From Actinomycetota bacterium (GTDB taxonomy: Bacteria; Actinomycetota; Geothermincolia; Geothermincolales; RBG-13-55-18): a DNA stretch of 64,000 nucleotides. Of this stretch, positions 44,250 to 62,388 are shown piece after piece. The notes beneath the pieces are model-generated. The model saw nothing but the letters and a program-made list of their open reading frames with translations. It did not search any database and had not been told where the DNA came from. Made by a program: the position numbers and the translations under genes. The DNA is taken from the NCBI GenBank assembly GCA_013178005.1, contig JABLXL010000023.1:1-64000 (forward strand). The letters run 5' to 3'. The number at the start of each line of letters is the position of its first letter. Position 1 is the first letter of the stretch.

Positions 44250-44735
44250 TTGGAGGACGCCGAGACGTTGGCTGACCGCCTGCGCGCCCTTTCCGAGGCC
44301 ATCGCCGTATTCGACCAGGCGGGTGGGGAGGTGACCGGCAGGTCCACCCCCCAGCTCATGTACTTCGCCGGCAAGGACCTCGGGAAGAGGGAAGCCGCGG
44401 CCTACGACGCCACCGACGACCTGGAAAGGGCGTTGAAGTGGACCTTCCGCGGCTCCCCGGAGGTGTGGAAGGTGACCCTGTGGAAAAACCAGGAAGACGA
44501 TGATTTCTGGGTGTACGAGGTGGAGGAGATGTTCATCCGCCTCCTTTTCGAGCGTTGCCCGATAAGGACGGCGTGCCTGGGATCGGGGGTCGCCCTGGGG
44601 GGGGTCGCCTGCCAGACCATGCACGGATACGCAGCCGGCGTCCTGGAGAGCGTTTTCGGGCGCAAGGTGGACCTCTTCACCGAGCATGCCGGGCCGGGCT
44701 CCTGCTTGGTGATACTCAAGACCACTCTGGAGTGA
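44250..44735 (+). CDS. V4R (hydrocarbon-binding)-like domain protein
   Basis: A 161-residue soluble protein. Its C-terminal third resembles the V4R domain: a cysteine-containing core (CQTMHGYAAGVLESVFGRKV) followed by an acidic residue and GPGSCLVILKTTLE. V4R domains bind small hydrophobic ligands or tetrapyrrole intermediates and occur in sensors and BchJ-like proteins. The N-terminal half (ALSEAIAVFDQAGGEVTGRS) is not recognised. TTG start close to AGGAGG. Only three bases separate it from the hydrogenase-like small subunit, so it is probably part of that unit as sensor, chaperone or ligand carrier. The role is inference. Confidence 0.55.
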   Translation: MEDAETLADRLRALSEAIAVFDQAGGEVTGRSTPQLMYFAGKDLGKREAAAYDATDDLERALKWTFRGSPEVWKVTLWKNQEDDDFWVYEVEEMFIRLLFERCPIRTACLGSGVALGGVACQTMHGYAAGVLESVFGRKVDLFTEHAGPGSCLVILKTTLE

Positions 44736-44738
44736 GCC

Positions 44739-45635
44739 ATGAGGGTAGCGGTGCTCTCGCTGAGTTCGTGCACGGGATGCCAGTACGTGCTGCTCAGTCT
44801 GGAGGAATATTTCTATACCCTCATCGGGGAAAACGCCGTTTCCTACGCCCCCTTCCTGCTGGATCAGAAGGAGCTCCCGGAGGTGGATCTCCTCCTGCTG
44901 GAGGGGACGGTGAGGAACGGGGACGATTTCCGCAGGCTCAGGGAGGCGAGGCAGAGGGCGGAGAAACTGGTGGCCCTGGGGACCTGCGCCTGTTTCGGCG
45001 GAGTGCCCGGGCTGGCCGACATGGTCTCGGAGGAGAGGATGTTGAGGATGCGCTATGGCGAGGGGGCGACTTTCGAGCAGGCCCCGCCGGGCGTGAAGAG
45101 GCTCCTCCCCGTGGACGCCTACGTGAGCGTGGACGCGTTTCTCCCCGGTTGCCCTCCCGGCGAGGAGCTGCTCAAGGATTTTCTCAAGCTGGCCCTGTCC
45201 GGAAACCTGCCCTCGCGCATGGGGGCGACGGTATGCTCGGAATGCAAGGTGACCGCGAGCCCGCCATCACGGGATGGATTCCGCAGGCTGCTGTCCGCGG
45301 TGCCAGAGGACGGGAAGTGCTTGCTGGAACAGGGGTTCATCTGCATGGGTCCCCTCACCAGGGACGGGTGCGGCGCGCTCTGCCCCAGCTCCTTCGGAGT
45401 TCCCTGCGGGGGGTGCAGGGGGCCGTGCGATGAGGTCCTCCTCCCGCCCTTCCAGGACCCGTGCCTGGAAACGCTTCGCAGGCTGGCGAGGGCTACGGGC
45501 TTGAGCCCCAAGGCGGTGGGCGAGCAGGCGAAAGACCCCGCCCACTCCTTTTTCAAGTACTGTCTGGCCGAGCCGCTCCTGCGCAGGAGGCGCCCCGGAG
45601 GCACGGCCAGGTTCCTGTACCGGCTTGGCGAGTAG
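44739..45635 (+). CDS. [NiFe]-hydrogenase-type small subunit (group 3-like, iron-sulfur)
   Basis: A 298-residue electron-transfer subunit. The proximal cluster ligands are present: C11 and C14 in SSCTGCQY, C83 in GTCACFGG, and C138 in PGCPPGEE. Further cysteines in VCSECKV, then GFICMGPLTRDGCGALCP and PCGGCRGPCD, match the additional clusters of cytoplasmic group 3 enzymes such as MvhG and sulfhydrogenase delta. There is no twin-arginine signal, so it is cytoplasmic. The electron-transfer half therefore looks intact, in contrast to the altered large subunit downstream. A 185-bp gap precedes that gene. Confidence 0.85.
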   Translation: MRVAVLSLSSCTGCQYVLLSLEEYFYTLIGENAVSYAPFLLDQKELPEVDLLLLEGTVRNGDDFRRLREARQRAEKLVALGTCACFGGVPGLADMVSEERMLRMRYGEGATFEQAPPGVKRLLPVDAYVSVDAFLPGCPPGEELLKDFLKLALSGNLPSRMGATVCSECKVTASPPSRDGFRRLLSAVPEDGKCLLEQGFICMGPLTRDGCGALCPSSFGVPCGGCRGPCDEVLLPPFQDPCLETLRRLARATGLSPKAVGEQAKDPAHSFFKYCLAEPLLRRRRPGGTARFLYRLGE

Positions 45636-45820
45636 AGAGCGCGCCAAGAGAGGCAAGGGCGGGCGATACGCTGAAGGCAAGGCGGTGCCCTCCCGCATGG
45701 AACGGGTGCGGGTAGAGTAAAGGCGGAAAGCGAAGGCGGGCCACGTGGTATGGAGATAAGGATGGCGCGGTCGGCGCGGGAAGACATGGTAGCGCCCCGG
45801 TGCCTGGAGAAAGGATGCCC

Positions 45821-47140
45821 ATGGCGGACATGGTGATAAGCACCGTGACCAGGATCAGCGGCAACGCTTGCATAAGGCTGATCAGGGACGAGGCGGGGAA
45901 CCCCCGGGAGGCTTGGCTGCAGGCGTTCGGATACCGGGGATTCGACATCATGTTGAGGGGCTCGCACGCGGATAACCTCGTCCCGGTGGTTTCGCGCATT
46001 TGCGGAGGAGATTCCGTTTTTCACCAGGTGGCGGCGGCCAGGGCGGTGGAGGAATGCCTGGGGATGGAGGTCCCGGCGGAAGCCTCGAGGGTGCGGGAGC
46101 TCGCCATGTGGGGCCAGTTGCTGGAAAGGCATGCCGTGTCCCTGACCGTTCACAGTTTGCCCGACCTCCTGCTGCCATCATCCGATCCCAGCCTTCGCAA
46201 CATCATCAGCATCCACCGGGTTGACGAGGAGGTGGTGCGCAGGTTCATGGCCCTCAAATCCCTGGGGACGCTGGTGCTCCGAGAGGCGGGGGGAAAGGCG
46301 GTGCATGCCGTGAACGTGGTGCCCGGCGGAGTGGTCAGGGATATCGGGGAGGCGAAGAGGAGGGAGCTTCTCGAGAGGATGAGCGAGGCGCGCTCGCTGC
46401 TGGTGGAGACGGCACGGCTGATAAAACTTCTCTTGCGCAGGAACGAGGATGTGGTCGATTCCCTGGGAGAGGAATCGGCGCCCTGTCTGGCCTTGGCCCC
46501 TGGGGACGGGATCGGGCTGCTGGGCGGAAAGGCGGTCATAGCGGCGGGGGAGGGGGGTGAACGGGTTTCGCTGGTCCCGGGGGAATTGCGCGCTTCCATA
46601 GAGGAGAGCAACAGCGGCCATTCCCACATACGCGTGGCGCAGATAAAGGGGGTGGGGGACGTGCTGGTGGGGCCCCTGGCCCGCGTCAACGTGAACGGCG
46701 GTTACGGCAGCGAGCTGGCCGACGCCGAGTTGGAGGAGCTCAAGGCGCAATGGGGATTCCCGTTCAGGCGCGTCATGCTCGGGCATGCCGCCAGGATCCT
46801 GGAGATGATACACGCGTGGGAGATGATAAAGGGATTGCTCGAGGCTCCCCCCGGCGAGGGGCTGAGGGTGACGGCAACGCCGGCGGAGGGCGAGGGTACG
46901 GGGGTGGTGGAAGCCCCGGAGGGCCTGCTGGTTTACGGATTGCGGGTTGACGGCGACGGTTTGGTGAAAGGGCTTTCCATAACCGCCCCCCTGCAGTTCA
47001 ACATCGGCTCGCTGGAGCGGTGCCTCCTGGAAGGGGCGCGCAAAGCGGGCGCGGGGACGGAAGGGGAAGCGCGGGTGTCGGTGCTGCTGGAGACGGCGGC
47101 GCGCTCCTACGCCCCCTGCATCCCCTGTGCCCTGCACTAA
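45821..47140 (+). CDS. [NiFe]-hydrogenase large-subunit homologue with altered active site
   Basis: A 439-residue homologue of group 3 large subunits. The N-terminal metal motif reads RICGGDSVFH: C61 is kept, but the second cysteine of CGxC is D64, while H68 remains. The C-terminal motif is APCIPCALH with C433 and C436 kept and the usual Asp before it replaced by Ala. The early RIEGH motif is RISGN (S13, N15), and the catalytic APRG arginine is E367 in EAPEG. The protein ends exactly at the conserved histidine, so no maturation peptide exists. ATG 45821 follows GGAGAAAGG; a GTG at 45800 is possible. Normal H2 turnover seems doubtful. Confidence 0.8.
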   Translation: MADMVISTVTRISGNACIRLIRDEAGNPREAWLQAFGYRGFDIMLRGSHADNLVPVVSRICGGDSVFHQVAAARAVEECLGMEVPAEASRVRELAMWGQLLERHAVSLTVHSLPDLLLPSSDPSLRNIISIHRVDEEVVRRFMALKSLGTLVLREAGGKAVHAVNVVPGGVVRDIGEAKRRELLERMSEARSLLVETARLIKLLLRRNEDVVDSLGEESAPCLALAPGDGIGLLGGKAVIAAGEGGERVSLVPGELRASIEESNSGHSHIRVAQIKGVGDVLVGPLARVNVNGGYGSELADAELEELKAQWGFPFRRVMLGHAARILEMIHAWEMIKGLLEAPPGEGLRVTATPAEGEGTGVVEAPEGLLVYGLRVDGDGLVKGLSITAPLQFNIGSLERCLLEGARKAGAGTEGEARVSVLLETAARSYAPCIPCALH

Positions 47141-47166
47141 GGCATAGCGGCAAAGGGAGGAACGCG

Positions 47167-47457
47167 GTGGAAGAGATGGACCTGGCCGTGGCCCATATCC
47201 GCATAGACGGAGAGAGGTGCGTTTCATGCCGCGAATGCGTGGAGGTATGCCCGCAGACGCGGGACTCGCAGTACCCCGTCTATGCATGGGGCGAGGACGG
47301 GCTGCCCCGGGTGGCAAATCCCGAGAGCTGCATAAGGTGTCTGAGTTGCGAGGCGTTCTGTCGCGCCAGGGCAATCGTCGTGGATTCCGAGGATGGGCAG
47401 GGTTGGCGAATGCCCGGAGATCCCAGGGCGGAGACAAAGTGCAGGGCCATCTTCTAG
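47167..47457 (+). CDS. Dicluster 2[4Fe-4S] ferredoxin-like protein
   Basis: A 96-residue protein with two cluster motifs: C18-x2-C-x2-C-x3-CP (CVSCRECVEVCPQ) and C55-x2-C-x2-C-x3-C (CIRCLSCEAFCRA). A lone C92 lies near the end. The GTG start at 47167 is six bases after AGGGAGG. It follows the large-subunit gene by 26 bp, so it is the likely electron partner of the hydrogenase-like complex. The second cluster lacks the usual proline after its last cysteine. Confidence 0.85.
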   Translation: MEEMDLAVAHIRIDGERCVSCRECVEVCPQTRDSQYPVYAWGEDGLPRVANPESCIRCLSCEAFCRARAIVVDSEDGQGWRMPGDPRAETKCRAIF

Positions 47458-47966: not shown

Positions 47967-48320
47967 TTGCCCGATCTGAGGAAGGTCCTGGAGGAACTGG
48001 TGGCTACGGGTACCGTCCGCGCGGCGCTGGTGGTGGGCAGAGACGGTTTCATTATCGAGACTGCCGGCGAGGACGCCAGCCAGCTCGAGGCCGTGGGAGC
48101 CATCGCTCCCAGTTCGCTGGGGGCGGCGGAGGTCATCGGCCTGGAACTCGCCCAGGGCCCCATGGCGCAGGCGATGTTCGAGTTCGAGAAGGGTGCCATA
48201 TTGATGAGCGCCGTGGGTGCGGACGCCATACTGGTATCCATCCTGCCCGCGGGAGCCAACCTGGGAAAGGCCAGGTATGACATCCGTAAATACCTCCCCG
48301 CCATAGAGGCCGCGCTGTGA
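47967..48320 (+). CDS. Roadblock/LC7 domain protein (first of three)
   Basis: A 117-residue alpha/beta protein of the roadblock/MglB type. Visible are VRAALVVGRDGFIIETAGED as the first strand pair and ILMSAVGADAILVSILPAGANLGKARYDI as the second half, the standard layout. Such proteins dimerise and bind or regulate Ras-like GTPases. TTG start after CAGGAGGTGG. It is the most different of the three copies and the most CvnB/MglB-like. Confidence 0.85.
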   Translation: MPDLRKVLEELVATGTVRAALVVGRDGFIIETAGEDASQLEAVGAIAPSSLGAAEVIGLELAQGPMAQAMFEFEKGAILMSAVGADAILVSILPAGANLGKARYDIRKYLPAIEAAL

Positions 48321-48384
48321 GAGAGGTACGGATCGCAACGGCGCTTCAAGCGCCGTGGTAATGGCGTTCTTACAGGAGGTGGCA

Positions 48385-48759
48385 GTGGCTTCGGAGAGAA
48401 TCGAGAAGATGAACGCCGTCCTGAGAAACCTGAGGTCAAGCCTCCAGGAGATAGAGGCCGCGGTGCTGATAAGCTCCGATGCCATGGCGCTGGCGTCGGA
48501 TATCTCAGACGAGGCGGACGAGGAGATGATAGGCGCCCTGTCCGCTTCCGTGCTCAGCATGGGTGAGAGGGCGGCCCGCGACCTGAAGAGGGGCAACCTG
48601 GAGCAGGTCTATATAAAAGGGGACCAGGGATACCTGTTGCTCGTACAGTGCGGCCCGGACGCCCTGCTGTCGCTTCTGGTAAAGCCGGAGGCGAAGATGG
48701 GGGTGGTGTTCATGGAGGGCAAGCGCACCGCCGAAGAGCTGGCAAAGCTGTTCGAATGA
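48385..48759 (+). CDS. Roadblock/LC7 domain protein (second of three)
   Basis: A 124-residue roadblock protein. Core segments are IEAAVLISSDAMALASDIS, SASVLSMGERAARDLKRGN, and LSLLVKPEAKMGVVFMEGKR. AGGAGGT at 48374-48380 sets the GTG start at 48385. Its order of segments matches the third copy (shared SMGER/SLGER and VY/VF..G..GY blocks), so the two probably arose by duplication. Likely partner of the downstream GTPase. Confidence 0.83.
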   Translation: MASERIEKMNAVLRNLRSSLQEIEAAVLISSDAMALASDISDEADEEMIGALSASVLSMGERAARDLKRGNLEQVYIKGDQGYLLLVQCGPDALLSLLVKPEAKMGVVFMEGKRTAEELAKLFE

Positions 48760-48821
48760 ACGCGTTTGGGTCGAGCATAGGTTCAAGATCGTTTCGGATA
48801 CTCAGGTAGGAGGTCTGATAC

Positions 48822-49220
48822 TTGGCGGAATCCAGGGAGGAAAGACTTCGCAACGCTTTGAGCGAGCTGGTTTCCAGGTCCGCGGAAGTGGACGCGGCGG
48901 CGGTGGTGAGCATGGACGGCCTGGTCATGGCCTCGGTGCTGCCGAATACCCTGGAGGAGGACAGGTTGGGCGCCATGTCGGCGGCCCTGTTGAGCCTGGG
49001 GGAAAGGACATCGGAGGAACTGGGCAGGGGCGAACTGGCACAGGTTTTCGTGGAGGGCAATTCCGGCTACGTTTTCCTTATGGCGGCCGGCGAGGACGCG
49101 GTGCTCACGGCGCTGGTGCGCAAGGGAAGCAAGCTCGGGCTGGTGCTATATGACGTAAAGGGAGCCGCCAAAAAGATCGCCGAGATCATAAAATCGGAAT
49201 TCCGTATAGAGTACGAATAA
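48822..49220 (+). CDS. Roadblock/LC7 domain protein (third of three)
   Basis: A 132-residue paralogue of the preceding gene, with VDAAAVVSMDGLVMASVLP, MSAALLSLGERTSEELGRGE, and LVRKGSKLGLVLYDVKG. AGGAGGT at 48808-48814 lies seven bases before the TTG start. The three copies may form different homo- and hetero-dimers. The next gene encodes a PATAN scaffold. Confidence 0.83.
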   Translation: MAESREERLRNALSELVSRSAEVDAAAVVSMDGLVMASVLPNTLEEDRLGAMSAALLSLGERTSEELGRGELAQVFVEGNSGYVFLMAAGEDAVLTALVRKGSKLGLVLYDVKGAAKKIAEIIKSEFRIEYE

Positions 49221-49396: not shown

Positions 49397-52300
49397 ATGG
49401 CGCTAAAGGGAAGCCTGAAGGATTTCAGCATCCCCGATCTCTTCCAGCTGCTCAACTTCGGCAAGAAGAACGGGACGCTCAACCTTACCCGCGGCCAGGC
49501 GAGGGGATATATCTGTTTCCGCAACGGCGAGGTCTTCTTCGCCACCACCAACTGGAAACGCCAGTCCCTGGGGTTGAAGCTCCTGAACGCCGGGATAATC
49601 ACCAAGGCGCAACTGGAGGAAGCCCTGCAGCTCCAGAAGACCTCCGCGAGGGGCCAGAGGTTGGGCCAGCTCCTCATCCGGCTCGGTTACATAACCAAGG
49701 AGCAGCTGGAGGTCTTCGTCGAGGAGCAGATACAGGACGCGGTGTTCGAGATGCTGCGCTGGACGGACGGCGAGTTCGACTTCCAGCCGGGGGTGGTGTT
49801 CCCGGAGGAGGACATCGGGCTCTCCATCAGCACCGAGGAGCTGATCATGGAGGGTTCGCGCCGCCTGGACGAGTGGAACCGCATCGAGAAGAAGATCCCC
49901 AACCTCAACGTGGTGTTCAAGATGACTTCCATGCAGGGCAGGGAGGCGGCCCAGATCAGCCTCACCCCGGAGGAGTGGATGGTGCTCACCCATATAGACG
50001 GCGAGAAGACGGTGCGCCAGATCGTGGAGCTCACGGGGATGAGCACTTTGCACACCTGCAAGATACTCTACGGGCTCATCGGGTCCGGCCTGCTGGAGAA
50101 CGTCACCCCCGAGGAGGAGGAGAGGGAGGCGGACCGCAGGCTGGAGCGTCTCGCTGAGGAGCTGGAGAAGGCGGAGACCGAGCCCCGGGATATGGAAGCG
50201 CTGCCCGCGGAAGGGCTCGAGGAGTATGTATTAGAGCCCGGCGCGCAGGAGCTGGAGGCTGCCGAGGAAACCCTCGTCGTGTCCCCGGAGTCCGCGCGTG
50301 CGACGGCGCCGGAGGAGGCAGCCGCGCCGGCGACCATGGAGGTGAGAGAACTTGATGAGGCCACCTCGCGCATAGCGGACGCGGTGGGCGAAGCCCTGGG
50401 GATCATGCAGATGGAGGAATACCCGGAAGCCAGGGAGGAAGCCGTGCCGGCAGCGGCGGGAGTGGAAACTCCGTCACCGGGCGCTCTCGTGAGGGAGGAG
50501 TCATGGCGGGAACAAGGCGCCGTGGCGGTCCCGGAGGAATCGGAAGAGGCGGCGGTCGGCCTGGAGGAGGAGATCGCCGGAGAAGAGGCGCCGCCCGCTG
50601 CCCGCGAACCCGCGGCGGAGGAGCTGGAAATGGCCCTCGGGGAGGCGGCGGTCGGCCTGGAGGAGGAGATCGCCGGAGAAGAGGCGCCGCTCGCTGCCCG
50701 CGAACCCGCGGCGGAGGAGCTGGAAATGGCCCTCGGGGAGGCGGTTTCTTCCGGGGAGGCCGAGGCGGTGGTGATAGAGCTGGGGGATGAAGGCGAGCCG
50801 CTTATCCTCATCGAGGAGGAGACACCCGCGGAGGTGCCGGGGACGCGTGCCGAGGCGATGGTGTCGCGCGGCTCGGAAGAGGCGGCACGGGAGGGCCAGG
50901 AGCCGGAGGCCGCGTGGGAAGCAGAGGAAGAGCCCCAGGCGGAGATTGTCGAACTCAGAGATGCCCGGAGCGTGCTCGAGGAGGAGATAAGGAAGGAGAC
51001 CGAGCGCATACGGGAGATGAAAGAAGCGGCGATGGAGGAAACCCTGGAGGCAGAGCAGGTTCTCCGCATAGAGAGCAAGGAGGCGGAGTTAGAGGAGCTC
51101 AAGAGGAAGATAAGCGAGCTCCTGCCTGAGGGCGTGAGCCTCGACGAGGCGGGGGAGACCGAAACAGAGGAAGCGACCCCCGGGAAAGCAAGGACAGGAA
51201 CACAGGAAGACCTCATGACGCGCGAGAGCGTGGAGGCGAGGGCCGCCAAGAGGGCGTATCTGGAGAAGAAGTACGGCAAGATTGAGAGACTGGCCGGGGA
51301 AGAGGAGATAGCGGAACTTGAACCCGAGGAGATACCCGAGGAGTGGAGGAGCCATCTCGAGAAGATATCGCCCGTGGAAAAGAAACCCGCCGAGCAGGTG
51401 GAGCCCCGGATTCCCGCAAGGGCGGCCATCGACCCCGAGAAAATACTGGGAGGAGCGTTCCGGGGAGGCGGCACGGCGGTGGAGCCCAGCCAGGAGCCGC
51501 CTGCGAGCGCGGAACCGTCGGAAAGCGTCGCGGAGGCGGTCACGCTGCGGCTACCCTTAAAAGAGCTCGAGGAGAAAGTAGGTTCCGTAACGGCGCCCGG
51601 AGGAGACGGGGGACGTCAGGGACTTGACTTGCTCGAGAGCGTTATGCTGGAAGATATATCCATAGATAGCAATAAGGGAACGGCTATCCTCGATGCTTCA
51701 GCGCTCGGCGCTGTGAGTAGCGTTGTGGGTTCCGTGGCGGCGGAAGAAGCTGCGGAACAGGATAGAGGCGCCGGCGTGGGCATCGAGGTGCTGGAAAGCG
51801 TAATGCTTGAGGACATTCCGAAAGCAGAGCCCGAGCAGTCGTTGGAGGACTTGCTGCCTGCCGGAGGAGAGGGCTTGGAGGCGGGTGGCGAGAGCTCGGA
51901 GACCTTCTTCGATATGGAAGAAGTGCCCAGCGGCTCTATCGCTTTGGACGGAGGCGGTGAGGAGACCTTGGCCGTTCCCCATATGTCGGAGATCGAGGAG
52001 CTCGAGCGGGAGATCCTTGAGGCGGAGATGGTTCCGGCCGCGCCGGACCTCTCCCATCTCGACGAGGAGATCGCCGCCCTGGAAGAGGAGATCTTTTCCG
52101 CAGCGGGAGGTGTTGAAGCAGAGGAACTTGCCCCTGAGCCCGCCCCGCAGGCACCTCCCTTCGTGGAGCCCGCCGCAGTGGCCCCCGTGCCCGAAACCGC
52201 CCCGGCTCCCCCGGCCGAGGAGGCCGTAACCCAGCAACCCATAGACATCCTGGAGAAGCCTGGTGGAGACGGGAGGCGGGGAGGCGCAGGCCGCGCCCGA

Positions 52301-52435
52301 AGCGGCCCGGGCCCCAGAGCCCGCCCCGCAGGCACCTCCCTTCGTGGAGCCCGCCGCAGTGGCCCCCGTGCCCGAAACCGCCCCGGCCCCCCCGGCCGGG
52401 GAGGCCGTAACCCAGCAACCCATAGACATGCTTGA
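49397..52435 (+). CDS. DUF4388/PATAN-domain protein with long acidic region; frame ends out of register
   Basis: The N-terminal 100 or so residues are a DUF4388/PATAN domain ([20 protein letters not shown]), with an embedded [21 protein letters not shown] segment like those of pilus ATPase N-termini. A helical and winged-helix-like part runs to about residue 250. The rest is a very acidic Glu/Ala/Pro-rich region with a 32-residue tandem repeat, a charged helix around 520-580, and two copies of ESVMLEDI. The frame's last 60 residues (after DILEK near 52257) turn Arg/Gly-rich and look like wrong-frame sequence. The true continuation is the frame at 52263-52844, so a one-base shift is suspected. 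Confidence 0.75.
50549..50740 (+). repeat. Tandem 96-bp in-frame repeat inside the PATAN protein gene
   Basis: Two adjacent copies encode a 32-residue unit beginning [15 protein letters not shown] and ending ELEMALGE. The copies differ by about one base (Pro to Leu). In-frame expansion of the acidic linker seems to be recent. Confidence 0.85.
52136..52430 (+). repeat. Near-identical ~115-bp duplication, offset 181 bp, spanning the frameshift
   Basis: The segment encoding [20 protein letters not shown] through TQQPID occurs at about 52136-52251 and again at about 52317-52430. The offset of 181 is one more than a multiple of three. The first copy reads correctly in the long frame and the second only in the next frame. 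Confidence 0.8.
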
Positions 52436-52844
52436 ACGGCTGCAGGCCGTAGGGATAGAGGAGGAGCACGTCGCGGAAAGGGAGGAAAGAGGGCCGGAAA
52501 TGGGCGAAATAGCCGGGGAAGCCCTCATGGGCGGAGTGATGGAAACCGAAGCGCCTCGGGTGGAAGCTGCATCTGGCGAGAAAATCGCGGAACCGGAGGC
52601 ATACGAGGAAGAGGCCGCGGGCTTCGACATGGAAAGCTATTCACTGGAGCGGGAACTGGCCGAGCTCACCGGCGCGGCGGTGCCGCAGCCTACCAAGAAG
52701 ATCAAGATCCCGGTGAAACCGAAAGGAGAAGTGGTGGAATCGGATGAATTAGATAAGGGGAAGCCGGTTCCCAAGGTCAAGAGGGACAAGGCGGTCACCA
52801 AGAGCCTGATCATGAGGATAATCGACGGCATCAAGAGATTGTAA
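52263..52844 (+). pseudogene. C-terminal part of the PATAN protein in the shifted frame
   Basis: This frame continues the acidic protein: it repeats the Pro/Ala unit, then a Glu-rich stretch, then a basic end ([15 protein letters not shown]) and an amphipathic C-terminal helix ([14 protein letters not shown]). Removing one base near 52258-52262 joins ILEK to [10 protein letters not shown] and gives a protein of about 1,148 residues. No ribosome site supports an independent start. It is either a real frameshift, a programmed one, or an assembly error in a repeat. The GTPase gene follows directly. Confidence 0.65.
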
Positions 52845-52859
52845 GGGGTGGATGACCAG

Positions 52860-53393
52860 TTGAGATCCTTCAAGATCGTCGTCACCGGGCCTTTCAGCGC
52901 GGGTAAGACCACGTTTATAAAGAGCATAAGCGAGATATCCATAGTCTCCACCGAGCGCGCCATCTCGGACTCCACGCGCAGAGTGAAGGCCGAGACCACC
53001 GTGGCCATGGATTTCGGAAGGATCACCATATCAAAGGACATCGTTCTCTACCTCTTCGGCACGCCGGGACAAGAACGCTTCGACTTCATGTGGCAGATCC
53101 TCTCCGAGGGTATGCTGGGGTACATCCTCATGCTGGACGCGAGCAGGCCGGAGACCTTCTCCGAGGGAAAGAGGATCCTGGAGTTCTTCGCCACCCTATC
53201 GGACGCTCCCTATGTCATCGGCGCCACCAGGATGCCCGATGGGGACCCCTCTCAAGCCATAGAGAGGATCAGGAAGGAACTCAACATCGACGGCGACATC
53301 CAGGTCATCCCCTGTAACGCCCTGGAGAAGGAGGACGTGAAGAAGGTCCTTCTGGGGTTGCTTTACGATATCCTGAAAACCCTGGACAAATAG
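52860..53393 (+). CDS. CvnD/MglA-like small GTPase (COG2229 type)
   Basis: A 177-residue Ras-like GTPase. The P-loop is TGPFSAGKTTFIKS (K16), followed by the family's TTVAMDFGRI and LYLFGTPGQERFDFMW. The usual NKxD guanine motif is replaced by TRMPDG, as in other members of this actinobacterial family. Streptomyces conservons pair such GTPases with roadblock proteins, and MglA acts with MglB in cell polarity. The TTG at 52860 is favoured by AAGGGGTGG; a GTG at 52848 would add four residues. It ends the unit of three roadblock proteins plus PATAN scaffold. Confidence 0.88.
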   Translation: MRSFKIVVTGPFSAGKTTFIKSISEISIVSTERAISDSTRRVKAETTVAMDFGRITISKDIVLYLFGTPGQERFDFMWQILSEGMLGYILMLDASRPETFSEGKRILEFFATLSDAPYVIGATRMPDGDPSQAIERIRKELNIDGDIQVIPCNALEKEDVKKVLLGLLYDILKTLDK

Positions 53394-53802: not shown

Positions 53803-54657
53803 ATGATGGAAATAGACGGGGGCACCGAGCTCACCGGCATCCTAGGTCATGACATCTCCTATACCTTGTCGCCCGCCATGCACAACGCCGCCTTTCGTCA
53901 CTACGGCCTGAACTGGGCATACCTACCCTTGCGCGTTGCTCCGGAGGGACTTGGAGCCGCCGTGGAGGGGCTGAGGGCGCTGGGTTTCCGCGGCTTCAAC
54001 GTCACCATCCCCCACAAGTTGAGGATAGCGGGGCTGGTGGACTGCCTGGAGGGCGACGCGGAGATGCTCGGGGCCGTCAACACCGTGGTGGCCGATAACG
54101 GCATGCTCGTGGGCTACAACACCGACGTCGAAGGCTTCCGCGCTTTCCTCCGCGAGCTGGGCGTCGACATCGGCGGCACAGCGGTCATGGTCATCGGGGC
54201 TGGCGGCGCGGCCAGGGCGGTGGCCTTGGCCGTGGCGAGGGAGGGAGTAGCCGAAATCCTGGTTGTTAACCGGACGTCCGAGAGGGCGGTTGAACTGGCG
54301 GAGGCGTTAAAGAAGGCGGTACCCTCGACCGAGATATCAGTAAGGAGCTTCGACCGCGAGGGCATGCACGGGGCGGGTGGATGCTCCCTCGTGGTGAACT
54401 GTACGCCCTTGGCGGAGATGGAAGACCTGCCGCTTGATCGCAGGGATTTTGCGCCGGGAACCTGGGCGGTGGACCTGAAATACGGCGAGCCCACGGGTTT
54501 TCTGCGCAAGGCGGAGTCATGGGGGGCCTTGACCGCGGGAGGAGAGGGCATGCTCCTGCACCAGGCGGGACTGTCCTTCCGCCTCTGGACGGGAAAGGAG
54601 CCGCCCCTGGAGGAGATGCGATCAGCGCTCCAGCGGGCGATCTCGGAGACGGCTTGA
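53803..54657 (+). CDS. aroE: Shikimate dehydrogenase
   Basis: NADPH-dependent reduction of 3-dehydroshikimate, 284 residues. The substrate site is LSPAMHNAAF, the catalytic lysine lies in NVTIPHKLR, the aspartate in GYNTDVEGF, and the cofactor loop is VIGAGGAARAVALA. A second ATG at 53806 is also possible. aroC begins 9 kb downstream, with the pilus cluster in between. The pilB frame touches its stop. Confidence 0.95.
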   Translation: MMEIDGGTELTGILGHDISYTLSPAMHNAAFRHYGLNWAYLPLRVAPEGLGAAVEGLRALGFRGFNVTIPHKLRIAGLVDCLEGDAEMLGAVNTVVADNGMLVGYNTDVEGFRAFLRELGVDIGGTAVMVIGAGGAARAVALAVAREGVAEILVVNRTSERAVELAEALKKAVPSTEISVRSFDREGMHGAGGCSLVVNCTPLAEMEDLPLDRRDFAPGTWAVDLKYGEPTGFLRKAESWGALTAGGEGMLLHQAGLSFRLWTGKEPPLEEMRSALQRAISETA

Positions 54658-54677
54658 CGGAGACGGGGACGACGCTC

Positions 54678-56345
54678 ATGCAGAAGCCGAAGAAGGAAAA
54701 ACTAGGCCAGATACTGATCAAGAACCGCATCATCACCGAGGAGCAACTCGAGCAGGCGCTGGAGCGCCAGCGGGAGACGGGCGAGTCCCTGGGCAGGGTG
54801 CTCATCGACCTGAAGATGGTGAGCGAGGGGGCCCTCACCTCCATCCTGGCGCGGCAGATAGGCCTCAAGTACGTAGACCTCGCCAACTACGACGTGGACA
54901 TAGCCGCATCCTCTCTGGTCGATGCCGAGGTGGCGCGTCGCTATTCACTCATCCCCGTTGGCTTCGAAGGGGACAAGCTGCTGGTGGCCATGGCCGACCC
55001 CACCAACGTTTTCGCGCTGGACGACATACGCATCATGACCGGCATGGACATCGAGCCCCTGGTGGCCACCAGGGAGGACATCGTATCTGCCATTAACCGT
55101 TACTGCCGCACCGAAACCGACCTCGACATCAGCACCGATGATATGACCAAGGACGTTGCTGAGACGGGTGAAGAGGCGGAGGCCGACGACGCCCCCATCG
55201 TGAAGTACGTCAACCTGCTCATAAGCGAGGCGGTGAACGACCGCGCCAGCGACGTGCACATCGAGCCCATGGAGAACGACGTTCGCATCCGCTACCGCAT
55301 TGACGGCGTGCTGCACGAGATAAGGAGGAACCCCAAGGCCATACATTCCGGGGTGGTGGCGAGGATAAAGGTCATGGCGGACATGAACATCGCGGAAAAG
55401 CGCCTGCCCCAGGACGGGAGGGCCTCGGTGGATATCCTCGGCAAGCCCGTCGATCTGCGCGTGGCCTCCCTGCCCACCATTCACGGGGAAAAGATCGTCA
55501 TGCGCATCCTGGACAAAAGCGCCTCTTTGATGAGCCTGGAGGAACTTGGCTTCAGCGAGGACCTGCTGGAGAAGTACGCCCGCAGCTTCCATAAACCCTA
55601 CGGCACCATCATGGTCACGGGTCCCACGGGCAGCGGGAAGACCACCACCCTCTACGCCACCCTGAACGTGCTCAACTCCATTAAACTCAACATCATCACC
55701 GTGGAAGACCCCGTGGAGTACCGCCTGCCCCTGATCAACCAGGTGCAGGTACATTACAAGGCGGGGCTGACCTTCGCTTCCGCCCTGCGCTCCATCCTGC
55801 GCTGCGACCCGGATATCGTGATGATCGGCGAGATCAGGGACCCGGAATCGGCGCAGATCGCCATCGAGTCCGCCCTCACCGGTCACCTGGTGCTATCCAC
55901 CCTCCACACCAACGACGCGCCCAGCGCCCTCACCCGCCTGCTGGAAATGGGGATCGAGCCCTTCCTCATCGCCTCCGCGGTGGACTGCGTAAGCTCCCAG
56001 AGGCTGGCGCGCCGGCTGTGCGAACGCTGCAAGGAGGCCTACGAGCCGGACCTGGAGTACCTTGAGAAGATAGGTTTTCCCTGGGACGAGAGGACGGACC
56101 AGGTGCTGTTCAGGCCACGCGGCTGTCCCGCATGCAACAACACCGGCTTCAAGGGCAGGGTCGGAATCTACGAGGTGCTCGAGGTGACGGAGAACATCGA
56201 ACACCTGGTGGCGAGAAATGCGCCGCACGTGGAGATTGCGGAGATGGCGAGGTCGGAGGGGATGAGGACTCTGCGGGATGAGGGCTTCATGAAGGTAAAG
56301 GAGGGGTTGACCTCCATCGACGAGGTCCTCAGGGTCATCATGTGA
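54678..56345 (+). CDS. pilB: Type IV pilus extension ATPase PilB
   Basis: Hexameric motor for pilin polymerisation, 555 residues. The N-terminal GspE-type domain has KLGQILIKNRIITEEQLEQ. The ATPase core has VTGPTGSGKTTTLYATLN, an Asp box, and Walker B in MIGEIRDPESAQIA. The zinc-binding tetracysteine CERCKE...CPACNNTG is kept. A TTG at 54654 overlapping the aroE stop as TTGA could add eight residues and couple translation. pilT and pilC follow. Confidence 0.95.
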   Translation: MQKPKKEKLGQILIKNRIITEEQLEQALERQRETGESLGRVLIDLKMVSEGALTSILARQIGLKYVDLANYDVDIAASSLVDAEVARRYSLIPVGFEGDKLLVAMADPTNVFALDDIRIMTGMDIEPLVATREDIVSAINRYCRTETDLDISTDDMTKDVAETGEEAEADDAPIVKYVNLLISEAVNDRASDVHIEPMENDVRIRYRIDGVLHEIRRNPKAIHSGVVARIKVMADMNIAEKRLPQDGRASVDILGKPVDLRVASLPTIHGEKIVMRILDKSASLMSLEELGFSEDLLEKYARSFHKPYGTIMVTGPTGSGKTTTLYATLNVLNSIKLNIITVEDPVEYRLPLINQVQVHYKAGLTFASALRSILRCDPDIVMIGEIRDPESAQIAIESALTGHLVLSTLHTNDAPSALTRLLEMGIEPFLIASAVDCVSSQRLARRLCERCKEAYEPDLEYLEKIGFPWDERTDQVLFRPRGCPACNNTGFKGRVGIYEVLEVTENIEHLVARNAPHVEIAEMARSEGMRTLRDEGFMKVKEGLTSIDEVLRVIM

Positions 56346-56706
56346 GTAAGCAATCTGGTAGGATATGGCATCGAGGCAAGCACGGGCGAGGATAGAAGCT
56401 ATTTGGATTTAGAAGGCGCGCGAGAGGGCCGATTCTCGTGGAAGAATGATCGAACAGATGGCAAGGGCGCACAGGGGACGATGATCGAAGTCGGGGCACC
56501 GCGTCCGCGGGGTTGTGTTGATGGGTTTGGATGGAAGAAAATAGGGATGGCTGGGCGTGAGAGTCCGGGAGTCAGGCTGTGGCGGGGGATTCCGGGAGAC
56601 CGAAGGTCCAGTGATATTTCATGGATAGGGAACTGGCCATGAAGCGTGAGAGGCGCGCGGGCCGGTTTCGGCGGAGAGGGTTTACGCAAGGAGAGGAGGA
56701 ACGGCA
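56346..56706 (+). other. Intergenic region between pilB and pilT
   Basis: About 361 bp with no supported gene. No clear promoter or terminator was found. GAGGAGG at 56694-56700 is the ribosome site of pilT. Confidence 0.35.
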
Positions 56707-57774
56707 TTGGCTGTGAAGCTCGATATCAATGAGTTGCTGGAAGAGGTGCTGGTGAGGGGAGCCTCGGACCTCCATATAACCGTGGGGGCGCCCCCCGTTA
56801 TGCGCATCAACGGAGTGCTGGTGAGGCTGGAAGAATATCCCAGGCTAACTTCAAATGACACCAGGGATATGGTCTACAGCATCCTCACCGCCCGTCAGAG
56901 GGAGCAGCTGGAGAGCAACCTGGAATACGACCTCTCCTATTCCGTGCCGGGGAGCGCCCGCTTCCGCGTAAACGCGTACTTCCAGCGCAACAGCATCGGG
57001 GCGGCGTTCCGCATCATCCCTTACCGTATAAAGACCATTCAAGAGCTGCATCTTCCGCAAGTGCTGGAGGAGTTCTGCATGCTGCCGCGCGGGTTCATCC
57101 TCGTCACCGGCCCCACGGGGCAGGGGAAGTCCACCACCCTGGCGGCGATGATCAACGTCATCAATGAGACGCGGAACCTGCACATCATCACCGTCGAGGA
57201 TCCCATCGAATTCCTGCACGTGCACAAGAAATGCATCGTCAACCAGCGCGAGGTAGGTGGAGACACCCATTCCTTCTCCAACGCGCTCAAATACGTGTTG
57301 CGCCAGGACCCGGACGTGATCCTGGTGGGGGAGATGAGGGACCTGGAGACCATTTCCACAGCACTCACTGCAGCGGAGACGGGACACCTGGTCTTCGCAA
57401 CCCTGCATACCCAGGACGCTCCCCAGACCATTGACCGCATCATCGACGTGTTCCCCACCTATCAGCAGCAACAGGTGCGCATGCAGCTAGCGGGCACCAT
57501 CCAGGCCATCGTGACCCAGCAGCTTCTGCCCACCAAGGATGGTCAGGGACGCATCCCCGCGGTGGAGGTGATGGTGGCCACGTCCGCCATCCGCAACCTC
57601 ATCCGCGAGGCCAAAGCTCACCAAATATATTCCGCCATGCAGGCGGGAGGCCAGTACAAGATGCAGACCATGGATCACTCCATAGCTGCCCTTTACAAGC
57701 GGGGAATCATCAGCTACGAGGTGGCCATGGGTCGCTGCAACAACCGCGACGAGATGGTCAGGCTCATCGGATAA
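56707..57774 (+). CDS. pilT: Type IV pilus retraction ATPase PilT
   Basis: Motor that depolymerises pili for twitching, 355 residues. The Walker A is TGPTGQGKSTTLAAMI, the Asp box ITVEDPIEFLH, Walker B ILVGEMRDLETI, and the PilT-specific motif AIRNLIREAKAHQI is present. This last motif distinguishes it from PilB-like paralogues. TTG start six bases after GAGGAGG. Presence of PilT predicts retractile pili. Confidence 0.96.
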   Translation: MAVKLDINELLEEVLVRGASDLHITVGAPPVMRINGVLVRLEEYPRLTSNDTRDMVYSILTARQREQLESNLEYDLSYSVPGSARFRVNAYFQRNSIGAAFRIIPYRIKTIQELHLPQVLEEFCMLPRGFILVTGPTGQGKSTTLAAMINVINETRNLHIITVEDPIEFLHVHKKCIVNQREVGGDTHSFSNALKYVLRQDPDVILVGEMRDLETISTALTAAETGHLVFATLHTQDAPQTIDRIIDVFPTYQQQQVRMQLAGTIQAIVTQQLLPTKDGQGRIPAVEVMVATSAIRNLIREAKAHQIYSAMQAGGQYKMQTMDHSIAALYKRGIISYEVAMGRCNNRDEMVRLIG

Positions 57775-58046
57775 CGGGTTGATTCTTTCAGGCGTACGAA
57801 GTTGGTCCTCCGGGCGATTTAAAAAAAGGGGGTCGAGGACATAAAGGAAAAGTGGTTGATTAACGATATATTACAAAAAGCGTAAATTAAATAAAAGCAA
57901 AGTGGTCTGGAGATAAAAAAGATAAAAGCTGTTGGATAAGGTAAAAGAGTAAACGAGTTGACATTTCTGTTGAAAAAGTAATATTTTCATGACATGGGCG
58001 GCGTGAAGTGTAAGGCCGAGGGGGCTGAGCAAAGGAGCGTGCGGTC
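57775..58046 (+). promoter_or_regulatory. A-rich strand-biased region with candidate pilC promoter
   Basis: From about 57820 to 57990 the + strand is strongly A/purine-rich, with repeated GATAAAA-like words, in an otherwise GC-rich genome. TTGACA at 57958-57963 is followed by TAATAT (57979-57984, spacing 15) or TATTTT (57982-57987, spacing 18). AAGGAG at 58032-58037 serves the pilC TTG start. Confidence 0.5.
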
Positions 58047-59273
58047 TTGGCGCAGACCTATTCCTACCGTGTAAGGGACAAGCAGGGCAAGATAATCACA
58101 GGCAAACTGGAGGCCGACAACGAGGCTCTGGTCTCGCAGCGACTGCGTGAGATGGGCTATTTCGTCATAGCCGTCGAGGAGGAAAGGGTTTCCCTCACCA
58201 AGAAGGAGATCCGCATCTTCCAACCCAAGGTCAAGGGCAAGGACATCACCGTTTTCACCCGCCAGTTCGCCACCATGATCAACGCCGGCCTCCCGCTGGT
58301 GAAATGCCTGAGCATCCTCTCTGAGCAGACGGAGAGCCCCGTGCTCTCGGAGGTGGTGGCGGACGTGCAGCACGAGGTGGAGATGGGCCGATCCCTCTCG
58401 GAGGCGATGTCCAAGCACGGCAACATCTTCAAGGACCTCTACACCAGCATGGTGAAGGCGGGCGAGATCGGCGGCGTGCTGGACGACGTCTTGCTTCGTA
58501 TCGCCACCACCCTGGAGAGCGAGGACGAGATAAGGCGGAGGATAAAATCGGCGTTGACCTATCCCGTGGCCATGTTCGCCATATCCATCCTGTTGTTGAT
58601 CGTCATGCTGGTGTTCGTGGTGCCAGTATTCGAGAGGATGTTCTCCCAGATGGGAGCGACCCTGCCCTTCCTCACCCGTATCATCATGGGCATAAGCCAC
58701 TTCCTGGTTAGTTGGAAGGGTGCAGTGCTCCTGATACTCCTCATCGTGGGAGGGGTGTTTTTGCGCAGGTGGCTGAAGACACCGGCGGGGCGCCGGAGGC
58801 TGGACGCGCTGAAACTGAAACTGCCGGTGTTCGGATCCTTGTTCCACAAGATGGCGCTTTCACGCTTCTCCCGCACCCTGGGAACCCTGGTCTCCAGCGG
58901 CGTGCCTATCCTACAGGCGCTGGAGATCACCTCCAACACGGTGGGCAACGTGCTGGTGGCTGAGGCGGTCGAGAACGTGAGGGCGGGCGTGAAGGAGGGG
59001 GATTCCATTGCCCGTCCCCTCGGTCAGAGCGCGCTCTTTCCGCCCATGGTCACCCAGATGCTGGCCATCGGAGAGGAAACCGGCGCCCTCGATACCATGC
59101 TCAACAAGGTCTCCGATTTCTACGACTCGGAGATTTCCGCCACTGTGGAGGCGCTTACCTCGTTGCTGGAGCCTCTGCTCATCGTCTTCCTGGGAATCGT
59201 GGTGGGCACCATCGTCATCGCGCTGTACATGCCCATATTCTCCCTTGTCACACAGTTCACCAAGCAGTCATAG
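58047..59273 (+). CDS. pilC: Type IV pilus inner-membrane platform protein PilC
   Basis: Polytopic platform coupling the motors to the growing pilus, 408 residues. It has two GspF domains, each with a hydrophobic end. Visible are QTYSYRVRDKQGKIITGKLE at the start, TRQFATMINAGLPLVKCL in the first domain, SRTLGTLVSSGVPILQALEI and AIGEETGALDTMLNKV in the second, and a terminal membrane helix. The TTG start lies nine bases after AAGGAG. Confidence 0.95.
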   Translation: MAQTYSYRVRDKQGKIITGKLEADNEALVSQRLREMGYFVIAVEEERVSLTKKEIRIFQPKVKGKDITVFTRQFATMINAGLPLVKCLSILSEQTESPVLSEVVADVQHEVEMGRSLSEAMSKHGNIFKDLYTSMVKAGEIGGVLDDVLLRIATTLESEDEIRRRIKSALTYPVAMFAISILLLIVMLVFVVPVFERMFSQMGATLPFLTRIIMGISHFLVSWKGAVLLILLIVGGVFLRRWLKTPAGRRRLDALKLKLPVFGSLFHKMALSRFSRTLGTLVSSGVPILQALEITSNTVGNVLVAEAVENVRAGVKEGDSIARPLGQSALFPPMVTQMLAIGEETGALDTMLNKVSDFYDSEISATVEALTSLLEPLLIVFLGIVVGTIVIALYMPIFSLVTQFTKQS

Positions 59274-59665
59274 CGCGCATGGATCAAGGGAGGCCTTTCC
59301 CGAACCGTATCTAGGGCTGTCTCCTCATAGCCACACGGTAGTGAGAACAAGGAATGGCTTATGGGGCTCGGGAACGGTTGATCTAACCTGCGGCGTGATC
59401 GCAAAAGGTCAAAAAGCCCTCATAGTGGAAATTTATATTGGCGGGTGATCCAGGCGAAGCGAGACTTGGGACACGTTTTCTGTTGCGCCTGTTTATTATT
59501 GACAAAAAGAATTAATTATATATAAGATATTAAGGAAATGTGAAAGATTACAAAAAGAGCTAAAGTTAGTTGCTGAAGTGGGCGATGAATATTATTGGCG
59601 CTTTCTGGAGTGACCATTAGTTTATTGTCATCTAATGGGAGAGCGGATTAGATGGAGGTCCGCGG
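59274..59665 (+). other. Intergenic region with a second AT-rich island before the HTH-pilM genes
   Basis: About 392 bp. The first 190 bp hold nothing recognisable. From about 59490 to 59640 the sequence is AT-rich and contains the promoter listed next. GGAGGT at 59654-59659 is the ribosome site of the HTH gene. Confidence 0.45.
59499..59528 (+). promoter_or_regulatory. Promoter TTGACA with TATAAG/TAAGAT for HTH-pilMNO
   Basis: TTGACA at 59499-59504 is followed by TATAAG (59521-59526, spacing 16) or TAAGAT (59523-59528, spacing 18). The leader to the TTG at 59666 is about 130 nt. Confidence 0.6.
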
Positions 59666-59881
59666 TTGGCGGAGCGATTCAGCAACAAGCTATTGACGGT
59701 CAACGAAGTGGCTAATATCTTGAGGGTGTCCAACATGACGGTATACCGGCTGGTTAAGGGCGGCCAGATTCCGGCGATAAGGGTTGGGAAGAACTACCGC
59801 ATCAAGGAAAGCGACGTAAACGACTACCTTAACCGGGGAAGCCAGAGGACGGGCGGGACGGATACTGGGGGTAGAGGATGA
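59666..59881 (+). CDS. Small excisionase-type helix-turn-helix DNA-binding protein
   Basis: A 71-residue protein of the HTH_17/MerR-like excisionase family. The fold is seen in LLTVNEVANILRVSNMTVYR followed by LVKGGQIPAIRVGKNYRI and a final helix ESDVNDYLNRG. TTG start six bases after GGAGGT. Its stop overlaps the pilM ATG (ATGA). No integrase is nearby, so it is more likely a regulator or architectural DNA binder of the pilus genes than a phage excisionase. Confidence 0.85.
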   Translation: MAERFSNKLLTVNEVANILRVSNMTVYRLVKGGQIPAIRVGKNYRIKESDVNDYLNRGSQRTGGTDTGGRG

Positions 59882-60939
59882 GTCCAAGAAAAGCCCAGGT
59901 GGCGGTGGGGCTGGACATCAGTTCCAACTCGCTCAAGGTGGCTGCAATCGACATCCAGAAAGGCGAACCCATCCTGAACACGCTGGGGATCGTCCGTATC
60001 CCCGAAGGCGTGGTAAGGGACGGGGAGGTGGAAGACGGGGTAACCCTGGTCGAGTCCCTCAAGGAGCTCTGGCAGGTGACCGGCCTGAAGGAAAAGTCCG
60101 TTATCTTGGGCATTGCCAACCAGAAGGTGATCGTCCGGCCTATCGAGCTTCCCTACATGGAGAAGGAGGAGCTGGATAGCGCTTTGCGTTTCCAGGTGCA
60201 GGAGTTCATCCCCATTCCCATAGAGGACGCCATACTGGATTTCGACATCATCGAGGAGTTCATGACCGCAGAGGAGGAGCGCATGCTTACGGTGCTCCTG
60301 GTGGCCGCTCATAAGGACATGATACAGAGCTTCGTGGAGGTTCTTAAAGCGGCAGGGCTATCCCCCTCTGCGATAGACCTTAAGGCATTTGCGCTTCCCC
60401 GGTCTCTGATACCGTTGCAGGAGCTGAGGGCTGCCTATGAGGGCGGCGAGGCGGTGTGTCTCATCAATGTTGGGGCGGGGATAACCAACATCGCCATCGT
60501 CAAGGACAACGTGCCGCGTTTCGCGCGTTTCCTGCTCCGGGGCGGCGACGACTTCGTGCGCGCCATCGTCAATCGCCTCGACCTGGAATGGGTAGAGGCC
60601 GAGGAGATAAGGCGTGGAAGGCTGGCCAACCTCGAGGCCGACGCGGTTCTGCAACAGGAGATCTTTAACTTCGTAGGCGAGATAAGGCGCTCAATAGACT
60701 ATTATATTGCGCAGACCCAGGAGCGGACCTTCAGCAAGGCGGTGGTTTCTGGAAGCGGCTCGATGACGGTAAACCTCGTCCAGGAGCTGAACAAGGGGCT
60801 GAGGATGCCGGTGGAGGTAGGCCGGCCGTATCAGAACGTGCAGATGGGCAAGCTACCGTATACGCCCGAGGAGCTGGCGGAGATCGAGCCGGCGGTGGCG
60901 GTCTGCGTGGGGTTGGCGTTGCGGGAGGTAGTGGAATGA
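59878..60939 (+). CDS. pilM: Type IV pilus assembly protein PilM
   Basis: Actin-like cytoplasmic ATPase that anchors the PilN-PilO subcomplex, 353 residues. Visible are VAVGLDISSNSLKVAAIDI at the N-terminus, QEFIPIPIEDAILDFDII, LINVGAGITNIAIVKDNVP as phosphate-binding loop, and VVSGSGSMTVNLVQELN. ATGA overlaps couple it to the HTH gene before and pilN after. Confidence 0.94.
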   Translation: MSPRKAQVAVGLDISSNSLKVAAIDIQKGEPILNTLGIVRIPEGVVRDGEVEDGVTLVESLKELWQVTGLKEKSVILGIANQKVIVRPIELPYMEKEELDSALRFQVQEFIPIPIEDAILDFDIIEEFMTAEEERMLTVLLVAAHKDMIQSFVEVLKAAGLSPSAIDLKAFALPRSLIPLQELRAAYEGGEAVCLINVGAGITNIAIVKDNVPRFARFLLRGGDDFVRAIVNRLDLEWVEAEEIRRGRLANLEADAVLQQEIFNFVGEIRRSIDYYIAQTQERTFSKAVVSGSGSMTVNLVQELNKGLRMPVEVGRPYQNVQMGKLPYTPEELAEIEPAVAVCVGLALREVVE

Positions 60940-61775: not shown

Positions 61776-61776
61776 T

Positions 61777-62388
61777 ATGAAGATAAGAGCTAGCGCGGGG
61801 ATATGGCTCTTGGTGGGCGCCCTGGTTTGTATCATCTTTCTTGTGCTGGCGCTATTCCTCATCGTCTTCCCCCAGCGCAGCAAAATAAGCGACGTTGAGG
61901 AAAAGATTGACGCCGTGGAGACCAGCATTCAGACGGAGATGAACAGGCTGAACCAGCTCAGGCAGTATGAGAAGGATCCCGAGCAGTTCACGCGTCAGAT
62001 CGAGGTCATCAAAGAGCGCATTCCTGAGCAGGTAGAGCTTGCGGACATCATCGAGCAGATAGACCATGCCGCGGAGGAGTCGGGCCTGGATTTCTTTTCC
62101 TTCACTCCTCAGACACCCGTAGCGGCCCAGGGATTCTACGTGGTCACCTGCGAGACGGTATTTAACGGCAGGTATTTTAACCTGGTGGAATTCTTCAACC
62201 ACATCGAAAGGCTTCCCAGGTCCGTGAAGGTGGTGTACCTGAACATCGCTCCCGGAGACGCAGGCCTTCCCTACCTGGAGATAACCATCAGGTTTAGGGC
62301 CTTCTTCACCTCGGATAAAGGCGTGGAGCAATTGGTGACCGGCGGCGCCGCACCCGCTCCCACTGGAGGAGCGGAGGGAGGCCAGTAA
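61777..62388 (+). CDS. pilO: Type IV pilus assembly protein PilO
   Basis: Partner of PilN, 203 residues. One N-terminal helix (GIWLLVGALVCIIFLVLALF), a coiled coil (DVEEKIDAVETSIQTEMNRL), and a ferredoxin-like outer domain with VTCETVFNGRYFNLVEFFNH and a C-terminal Gly/Ala tail. The ATG at 61777 is chosen over the upstream in-frame start because GGAGGTGG precedes it and the helix is then N-terminal. Confidence 0.92.
   Translation: MKIRASAGIWLLVGALVCIIFLVLALFLIVFPQRSKISDVEEKIDAVETSIQTEMNRLNQLRQYEKDPEQFTRQIEVIKERIPEQVELADIIEQIDHAAEESGLDFFSFTPQTPVAAQGFYVVTCETVFNGRYFNLVEFFNHIERLPRSVKVVYLNIAPGDAGLPYLEITIRFRAFFTSDKGVEQLVTGGAAPAPTGGAEGGQ

Follow-up and report, generated by a model that had tools for sequence, protein, structure and literature searches.

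The large-subunit fold of the [NiFe]-hydrogenases has been reused after loss of the metal site or of the activity in NuoD of complex I, in the Ehr complexes and in HoxV/HupK; NuoD and Ehr belong to membrane-bound energy-converting complexes, whereas HoxV/HupK are assembly scaffolds. Here we describe a four-gene unit that appears to be a further case of such reuse, namely a soluble pair of MvhGA type in which most metal-site cysteines are retained and which is encoded together with a V4R-like protein and a ferredoxin. The unit was found in a 64-kb stretch of contig JABLXL010000023.1 (hereafter the window) from a member of Candidatus Geothermincolia (Actinomycetota), a class of uncultured hot-spring bacteria. 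The closest named record to the window is Candidatus Solincola daggyaiensis, whose large subunit is 76% identical (one contig scan, in which this was the sole record matched).

Among described systems, MvhAG/VhuAG (cytosolic F420-non-reducing group 3c hydrogenases; PDB 5odc) is homologous to both subunits at full length and shares with the unit the three small-subunit cluster sites and the CxxC of the L2 motif. In contrast to MvhAG/VhuAG, the unit adjoins a ferredoxin gene and a V4R gene instead of MvhD or heterodisulfide reductase genes, with mltG and roadblock genes as its neighbors; it lacks the proton-gate Glu, the pendant Arg, the L2 Asp, one bridging Cys and the C-terminal extension, and it persists in genomes without HypDEF. 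The V4R-like protein shares its predicted fold and its GxxxG pairs with the V4R sensors (MJ1460, DmpR/MopR/PoxR, MsvR and CorR) and with TRAPP Bet3/TRAPPC3, and it also has Cys/His residues that may lie at positions of the V4R metal-binding hairpin. Unlike the V4R sensors, it stands alone without a DNA-binding or AAA+ domain, scores below the Pfam threshold and always lies beside the hydrogenase-like subunits. The MglA-roadblock polarity systems (Myxococcus type IV pili) and the Streptomyces conservons resemble the locus in the adjacency of small GTPase, roadblock and pilus motor genes; we know of no V4R or hydrogenase-like input to these systems, and the link at this locus is one of position. 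That a hydrogenase core can be put to non-hydrogenase use is thus not new in itself, and the combination of V4R-like, hydrogenase-like and ferredoxin genes may be new as far as we could find: a literature search with many journals outside its coverage returned no description of such a unit, which supports novelty weakly. The features of the unit in the window are as follows.

44250..44735, + strand: protein of predicted V4R/TRAPP fold, 161 amino acids (open reading frame list, predicted structure, alignment)
44739..45635, + strand: hydrogenase small subunit of MvhG/VhuG type, 298 amino acids, 12 invariant Cys for three [4Fe-4S] sites (Pfam, NCBIfam, alignment)
45815..47140, + strand: hydrogenase-like large subunit, apparently MvhA/VhuA derived (Pfam, NCBIfam, alignment)
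47167..47457, + strand: 2[4Fe-4S] ferredoxin, 96 amino acids, 8 invariant cluster Cys (Pfam, alignment)
45857..45859, + strand: Ser codon in place of the RxEGH Glu, the proton-transfer residue (alignment)
46001..46012, + strand: L1 motif C68-G-G-D71, with the bridging Cys replaced by Asp (alignment)
46919..46921, + strand: Glu374 where the pendant active-site Arg would sit, APRG changed to APEG (alignment)
47111..47137, + strand: L2 motif A-P-C440-I-P-C443-A-L-H446, with the stop codon directly 3' (alignment)

A preliminary description of the window, made from its sequence, had proposed these four genes as a compact unit, and the reading frames bear it out as real. The V4R-like gene starts at a TTG (44250) preceded by GGAGGAG and ends 3 bp ahead of the small-subunit ATG at 44739, while the gaps between the small- and large-subunit genes and between the large-subunit and ferredoxin genes are about 180 bp and 26 bp. 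The large-subunit frame opens with a GTG at 45800, and its likely start is the ATG at 45815 or 45821 because homologues begin there. The ferredoxin frame extends back to 47020, within the large-subunit gene, and its likely start is a GTG at 47167 with GGGAGG upstream.

Cluster ligands and the remodelled active site

The central fact to emerge from the alignments is that the electron wiring of the unit appears perfectly retained while the catalytic residues have been lost. The small subunit matches PF01058 (Pfam, E 1.8e-23) and the large subunit PF00374 (E 1.8e-15), with VhuG and VhuA as the best NCBIfam matches, although the respective scores of 178 and 188 bits are far short of the equivalog cut-offs of 450 and 800 bits. 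Homology to MvhG/VhuG and MvhA/VhuA spans most or all of their length, which points to descent of the large subunit from MvhA/VhuA-type group 3c hydrogenases. All 12 cysteines of the three small-subunit [4Fe-4S] sites are invariant in 23 sequences. The ferredoxin (Fer4_10, E 1.5e-12) has two complete four-cysteine cluster motifs, as the preliminary description had noted, and all eight of its cluster cysteines are invariant in 22 sequences.

The large subunit was compared with eight paralogues from the phylum that have canonical sites. All eight have the RxEGH Glu, the L2 Asp and a C-terminal extension of about 24-27 further residues. No unit member with readable sequence retains the Glu of RxEGH or the Asp preceding L2, and the window reads RISGN and APC at these positions. 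The C-terminal extension, which serves protease maturation and is not universal in hydrogenases, is likewise absent from all unit members, and the window frame stops right after PCIPCALH. Other changes follow the families within the class, of which f1 is the window's own. The second L1 Cys is Asp in 14 of 14 f1 members and is retained in f3, f4 and f6. The pendant Arg, reported as strictly conserved across hydrogenases (PMC10430524), is Glu in f1, lost in f3 and mostly retained in f4. In the window, the first L1 Cys and both L2 Cys are retained, and an alignment of 21 large subunits shows no variation at C68, C440, C443 or H75. As exceptions, G004 and G008 have lost the final L2 His, and G023 has lost this His as well as the second L2 Cys. 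The G023 large subunit is truncated (L075, 9575-10864), and that of G027 occurs as two reading frames (L076, 449-1748), which could reflect a frameshift, a fission or a sequencing error.

The NiFe(CN)2CO cofactor requires four cysteines and six Hyp proteins (PMC12134894). HypD, HypE and HypF were scored above their own profile cut-offs, and a canonical hydrogenase was defined as a full-length PF00374 protein. By these measures HypDEF was found in many carriers of the unit, whereas HypD, HypE, HypF and a canonical hydrogenase were all absent from five unit-bearing genomes: G007 (97% complete), G016 (99%), G017 (82%), G018 (99%) and G019 (95%). A second PF00374 match in G019 (L112, 453-1520) is NuoD/Ehr-like, lacks the L1 CxxC and has the sequences RICARS and, at the C terminus, CLCAAC; it adjoins a gene for an antiporter-like membrane subunit. 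The preliminary description had suggested looking for co-occurrence with hydrogenase maturation genes, an expectation that the five genomes contradict; at the level of gene content, these genomes indicate independence of the unit from the NiFe(CN)2CO pathway. Given the lost catalytic residues and the five carriers without HypD/E/F or a canonical hydrogenase, the product of the four genes is, as judged from sequence, not a [NiFe]-hydrogenase. It would likewise fall outside the group 3c hydrogenases, though derived from such a core, because several of their tested defining features are missing. As a side observation, G015, of the same order, encodes a canonical pair of MvhGA type in which the motifs are complete and the C-terminal extension is present (L078, 4845-7204).

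The V4R-like protein and conservation of the unit

Attempts to place the V4R-like protein by profile failed: it scores 12.4 bits against Pfam PF02830 (gathering cut-off 31; E 0.18), the best V4R E value among 23 homologues is 0.0089 with all members below threshold, no match was obtained in NCBIfam or in a PDB sequence search, and an hhalign comparison with 16 V4R proteins drawn from this phylum was weak (P 0.0096, probability 4.3%). The assignment is carried by fold and motif evidence. An AlphaFold model built from 23 sequences (pLDDT, the predicted local distance difference test score, 91.8) gave as top structural matches the phenol-sensor (V4R) domains of MopR, PoxR and DmpR and TRAPP subunits, followed by MJ1460 and H-NOX; these include 5kbe (Foldseek E 2.3e-5), 2bjn (Z 11.9 over 134 residues, 3.5 Å) and MJ1460 itself (2oso, Z 9.5). 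V4R and Bet3 are characterized by glycine pairs with three intervening residues, in helix 2 and helix 5 (PMC2253512), and the protein has invariant or nearly invariant GxxxG pairs at G41/G45 (helix 33-51) and G126/G130 (helix 119-136). The model thus places it in the V4R/TRAPP (Bet3) fold superfamily, though not in PF02830 by Pfam's rule, and in this sense the V4R-type first gene of the preliminary description is supported at the level of fold.

Four residues (C103, C121, H125, C152) are invariant, and two more (H146, D141) nearly so. The zinc ligands of DmpR are C151, E172, C177 and C185 (PMC7264223). C121 aligns with the first conserved V4R Cys in the hhalign alignment, which is itself weak, and C121, D141, H146 and C152 may lie near the positions of the DmpR ligands, the last three as placed by residue offset. 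V4R domains act as a redox sensor in MsvR (PMC3729527) and as a CO sensor in CorR (cited in PMC6557876), and V4R-fold relatives have ligand cavities (PMC10933270). Separate, larger, Pfam-positive V4R proteins also occur in the class, some as tandem pairs (L113-L119, L131-L133, L136); in L113 and L114 a canonical hydrogenase/hyp locus lies on the same contig, approximately 5-25 kb away.

Homologues of the V4R-like gene were identified in 23 of 31 Geothermincolia genomes and in none of the remaining genomes of a 396-genome sample of the phylum, other phyla not having been properly searched. The small- and large-subunit genes follow it in all 23 carriers, with the ferredoxin gene next wherever the contig reaches, so that the conservation in relatives anticipated by the preliminary description is borne out. 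Spacing varies: the V4R and small-subunit genes are 2-4 bp apart in most of f1 and 19-37 bp apart in four members of the order, and they overlap by 4 bp in f4 and f6. The flanks are also constant as far as contigs or fetched stretches extend, with rarA, nifU, DUF948, alaS, ruvX and mltG on one side and roadblock/LC7 genes, PATAN/DUF4388, mglA, aroE, pilB and pilT on the other. The unit is truly absent, with mltG followed by roadblock genes at the visible insertion site, in G021, G026 and G028. Three further genomes showing no unit (G012, G015 and G025) were excluded from the losses since their contigs end at or in mltG, and G029, in which the large-subunit and ferredoxin genes stand at a contig start, was not scored as lacking the V4R gene.

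The large subunits of the unit form one monophyletic clade relative to the eight paralogues (support 100/100), and pairwise distances of the V4R, small and large subunits track those of alaS (r 0.96), consistent with vertical descent from an early point in the history of the class. Approximate ratios of nonsynonymous to synonymous substitution rates (dN/dS) within the genus are 0.08-0.10 for the V4R gene, 0.09-0.17 for the small subunit, 0.13-0.22 for the large subunit and 0.15-0.31 for the ferredoxin, compared to 0.11-0.15 for alaS, 0.12-0.21 for mltG and 0.21 for aroE, values indicative of purifying selection on all four genes. A chance neighborhood was rejected because the gene order recurs throughout the class and all four genes appear to be under purifying selection. 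Pseudogene status and an assembly artefact were also rejected, on the recurrent order, the invariant cluster cysteines, the dN/dS values, the single clade and the distances.

Proposed function and rival explanations

We cautiously favor the reading that the four genes encode a cytosolic, ferredoxin-wired redox module built from an MvhG-MvhA core that is no longer a hydrogenase, in which the V4R-like protein serves in sensing or gating. In such a complex, electrons would enter or leave via the 2[4Fe-4S] ferredoxin and pass through the small subunit by way of its three [4Fe-4S] clusters to reach a remodelled large-subunit site. This site would be built from three or four cysteines (C68, D71, C440 and C443 in the window), would lack the Hyp-made NiFe(CN)2CO and may hold a simpler metal or Fe-S center. 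The preliminary description had drawn the same path from ferredoxin through the small subunit to an unusual site; the invariant cluster ligands agree with the path, while the five genomes with the unit but without HypD/E/F and a canonical hydrogenase argue against a [NiFe] site at its end. The V4R-fold protein, presumably coupled translationally to the small subunit, may bind a hydrophobic ligand or a metal and gate or read the redox state of the complex. We lean toward a sensor rather than an enzyme because of the fold, the signalling neighbors and the varying site residues, and the suggestion of a new redox or sensing module in the preliminary description fits the evidence. The role is most likely one in sensing or regulation, for which the best candidate output would be the adjoining roadblock/PATAN/MglA/type IV pilus system:

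47967..49220, + strand: three roadblock/LC7 proteins, at 47967-48320, 48355-48759 and 48822-49220 (constant neighbors)
49397..53393, + strand: PATAN/DUF4388 protein at 49397-52435 and MglA-like small GTPase at 52848-53393 (constant neighbors)
54519..62388, + strand: type IV pilus genes pilB, pilT, pilC, pilM, pilN and pilO (named from sequence; pilB, pilT and pilC served as queries in relatives)

If this reading is correct, the unit is a natural case of a soluble [NiFe]-hydrogenase core retained for its wiring after loss of the catalytic machinery and, in some lineages, of the whole cofactor pathway. Stepwise stages would then be visible within one class, from four cysteines in f3 and f4 to Cys3Asp in the window's family, and the small set of four proteins, amenable to heterologous expression, makes the function of a cofactor-less hydrogenase fold testable. 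The locus would also set a so far uncharacterised family of V4R-fold proteins in a class-specific context and might offer MglA a redox input.

However, several observations weigh against a non-hydrogenase sensor. All four metal cysteines of L1 and L2 are still present in f3 and f4, and the evidence leaves room for a catalytic role. The window's own genome encodes HypDEF and a canonical hydrogenase elsewhere, so that an Fe(CN)2CO-type center in this host is not strictly impossible. The metagenome-assembled genomes are incomplete, and the hyp genes cluster with the hydrogenase genes, such that in any one genome a single gap could take out the whole set, although such gaps could hardly explain five genomes from three families. 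The proposed output is weakened as well, since the unit is missing beside a roadblock-PATAN-mglA block in G028 and in G031 (a genome of the phylum) and beside roadblock genes in G021 and G026, which shows that these genes are independent of it.

There are several potential explanations other than a sensor. A ferredoxin-dependent enzyme, in which the V4R protein binds a hydrophobic organic substrate and presents it to the remodelled site for reduction or oxidation, is a serious though unlikely candidate: it would account for the retention of every cluster ligand, for the ligand cavities of V4R-fold relatives (PMC10933270) and for active-site changes that are consistent within lineages rather than random, but no metabolic genes accompany the unit and the site residues vary by family (Asp or Cys in L1, Glu or Arg in APxG), which is unusual for one fixed chemistry. 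We consider it very improbable that the unit is a working but atypical group 3c [NiFe]-hydrogenase, as its closest sequence relatives, its three to four retained metal cysteines and the HypDEF genes of many carriers might suggest, when the proton-gate Glu and L2 Asp are lost in all members, the pendant Arg and bridging Cys in f1, five carriers lack HypDEF and the scores fall far under the equivalog cut-offs. The invariant cluster cysteines, the intact reading frames in most carriers and dN/dS values (about 0.08-0.3) that resemble those of alaS, mltG and aroE apart from a somewhat higher ferredoxin make it no more credible that the unit is a decaying, functionless relic whose position persists because the chromosome rearranges slowly, despite the lost catalytic residues, the synteny of the entire rarA-to-pilB neighborhood and the split and truncated large subunits of G027 and G023. 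Least probable of all is a cofactor-assembly scaffold resembling HoxV/HupK, large-subunit-like proteins that carry Fe(CN)2CO. These are hydrogenase-like, HoxV being inactive (PMC12134894), and many carriers do have a canonical hydrogenase; yet the unit is not linked to the hyp locus, it comes with a dedicated small subunit bearing three complete cluster sites and with a ferredoxin, neither of which a scaffold requires, and its retention in genomes without hydrogenase and HypD/E/F contradicts a scaffold unless all five miss one hydrogenase locus.

A separate question, overlapping with the explanations above, concerns the output of the proposed redox sensor. The chances seem about even that the association with MglA and the pili reflects shared ancestry of neighbors and that the module acts in metabolism or redox homeostasis. 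In addition to the unit-less roadblock loci named above, pilB and pilT also follow in unit-less genomes, and 510 bp separate the ferredoxin from the first roadblock gene in the window. Conversely, no displacement of the unit from its roadblock neighbors was seen in any carrier with a long enough contig, and mltG, the unit and the roadblock genes are nearly gapless in most f4 and f6 genomes, where the ferredoxin-to-roadblock gap is only 29-176 bp, an arrangement that hints at co-transcription with the roadblock genes. By gene position, the unit could possibly act as an input to MglA, and genes for V4R/TRAPPC3-like, roadblock and small GTPase proteins in one place recall, as a lead, parts of TRAPP systems (PMC10933270). 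The fuller proposal, that a hydrogenase-core redox sensor acts through a TRAPP/Bet3-like V4R subunit to control type IV pili and MglA, a Ras-like GTPase bound by roadblock proteins, is improbable; if true, it would constitute a bacterial redox input to small-GTPase polarity, partly parallel to eukaryotic TRAPP with its Rab GTPase.

Two minor observations concern the neighboring proteins. Roadblock proteins 1 and 3 are approximately 88-100% identical within the family, well above their neighbors, and dN of the first is about 0 in the genus. The PATAN/DUF4388 protein has a long, acidic, repetitive tail, its frame extending over 1012 amino acids in the window and 1420 amino acids in L097 (G028).

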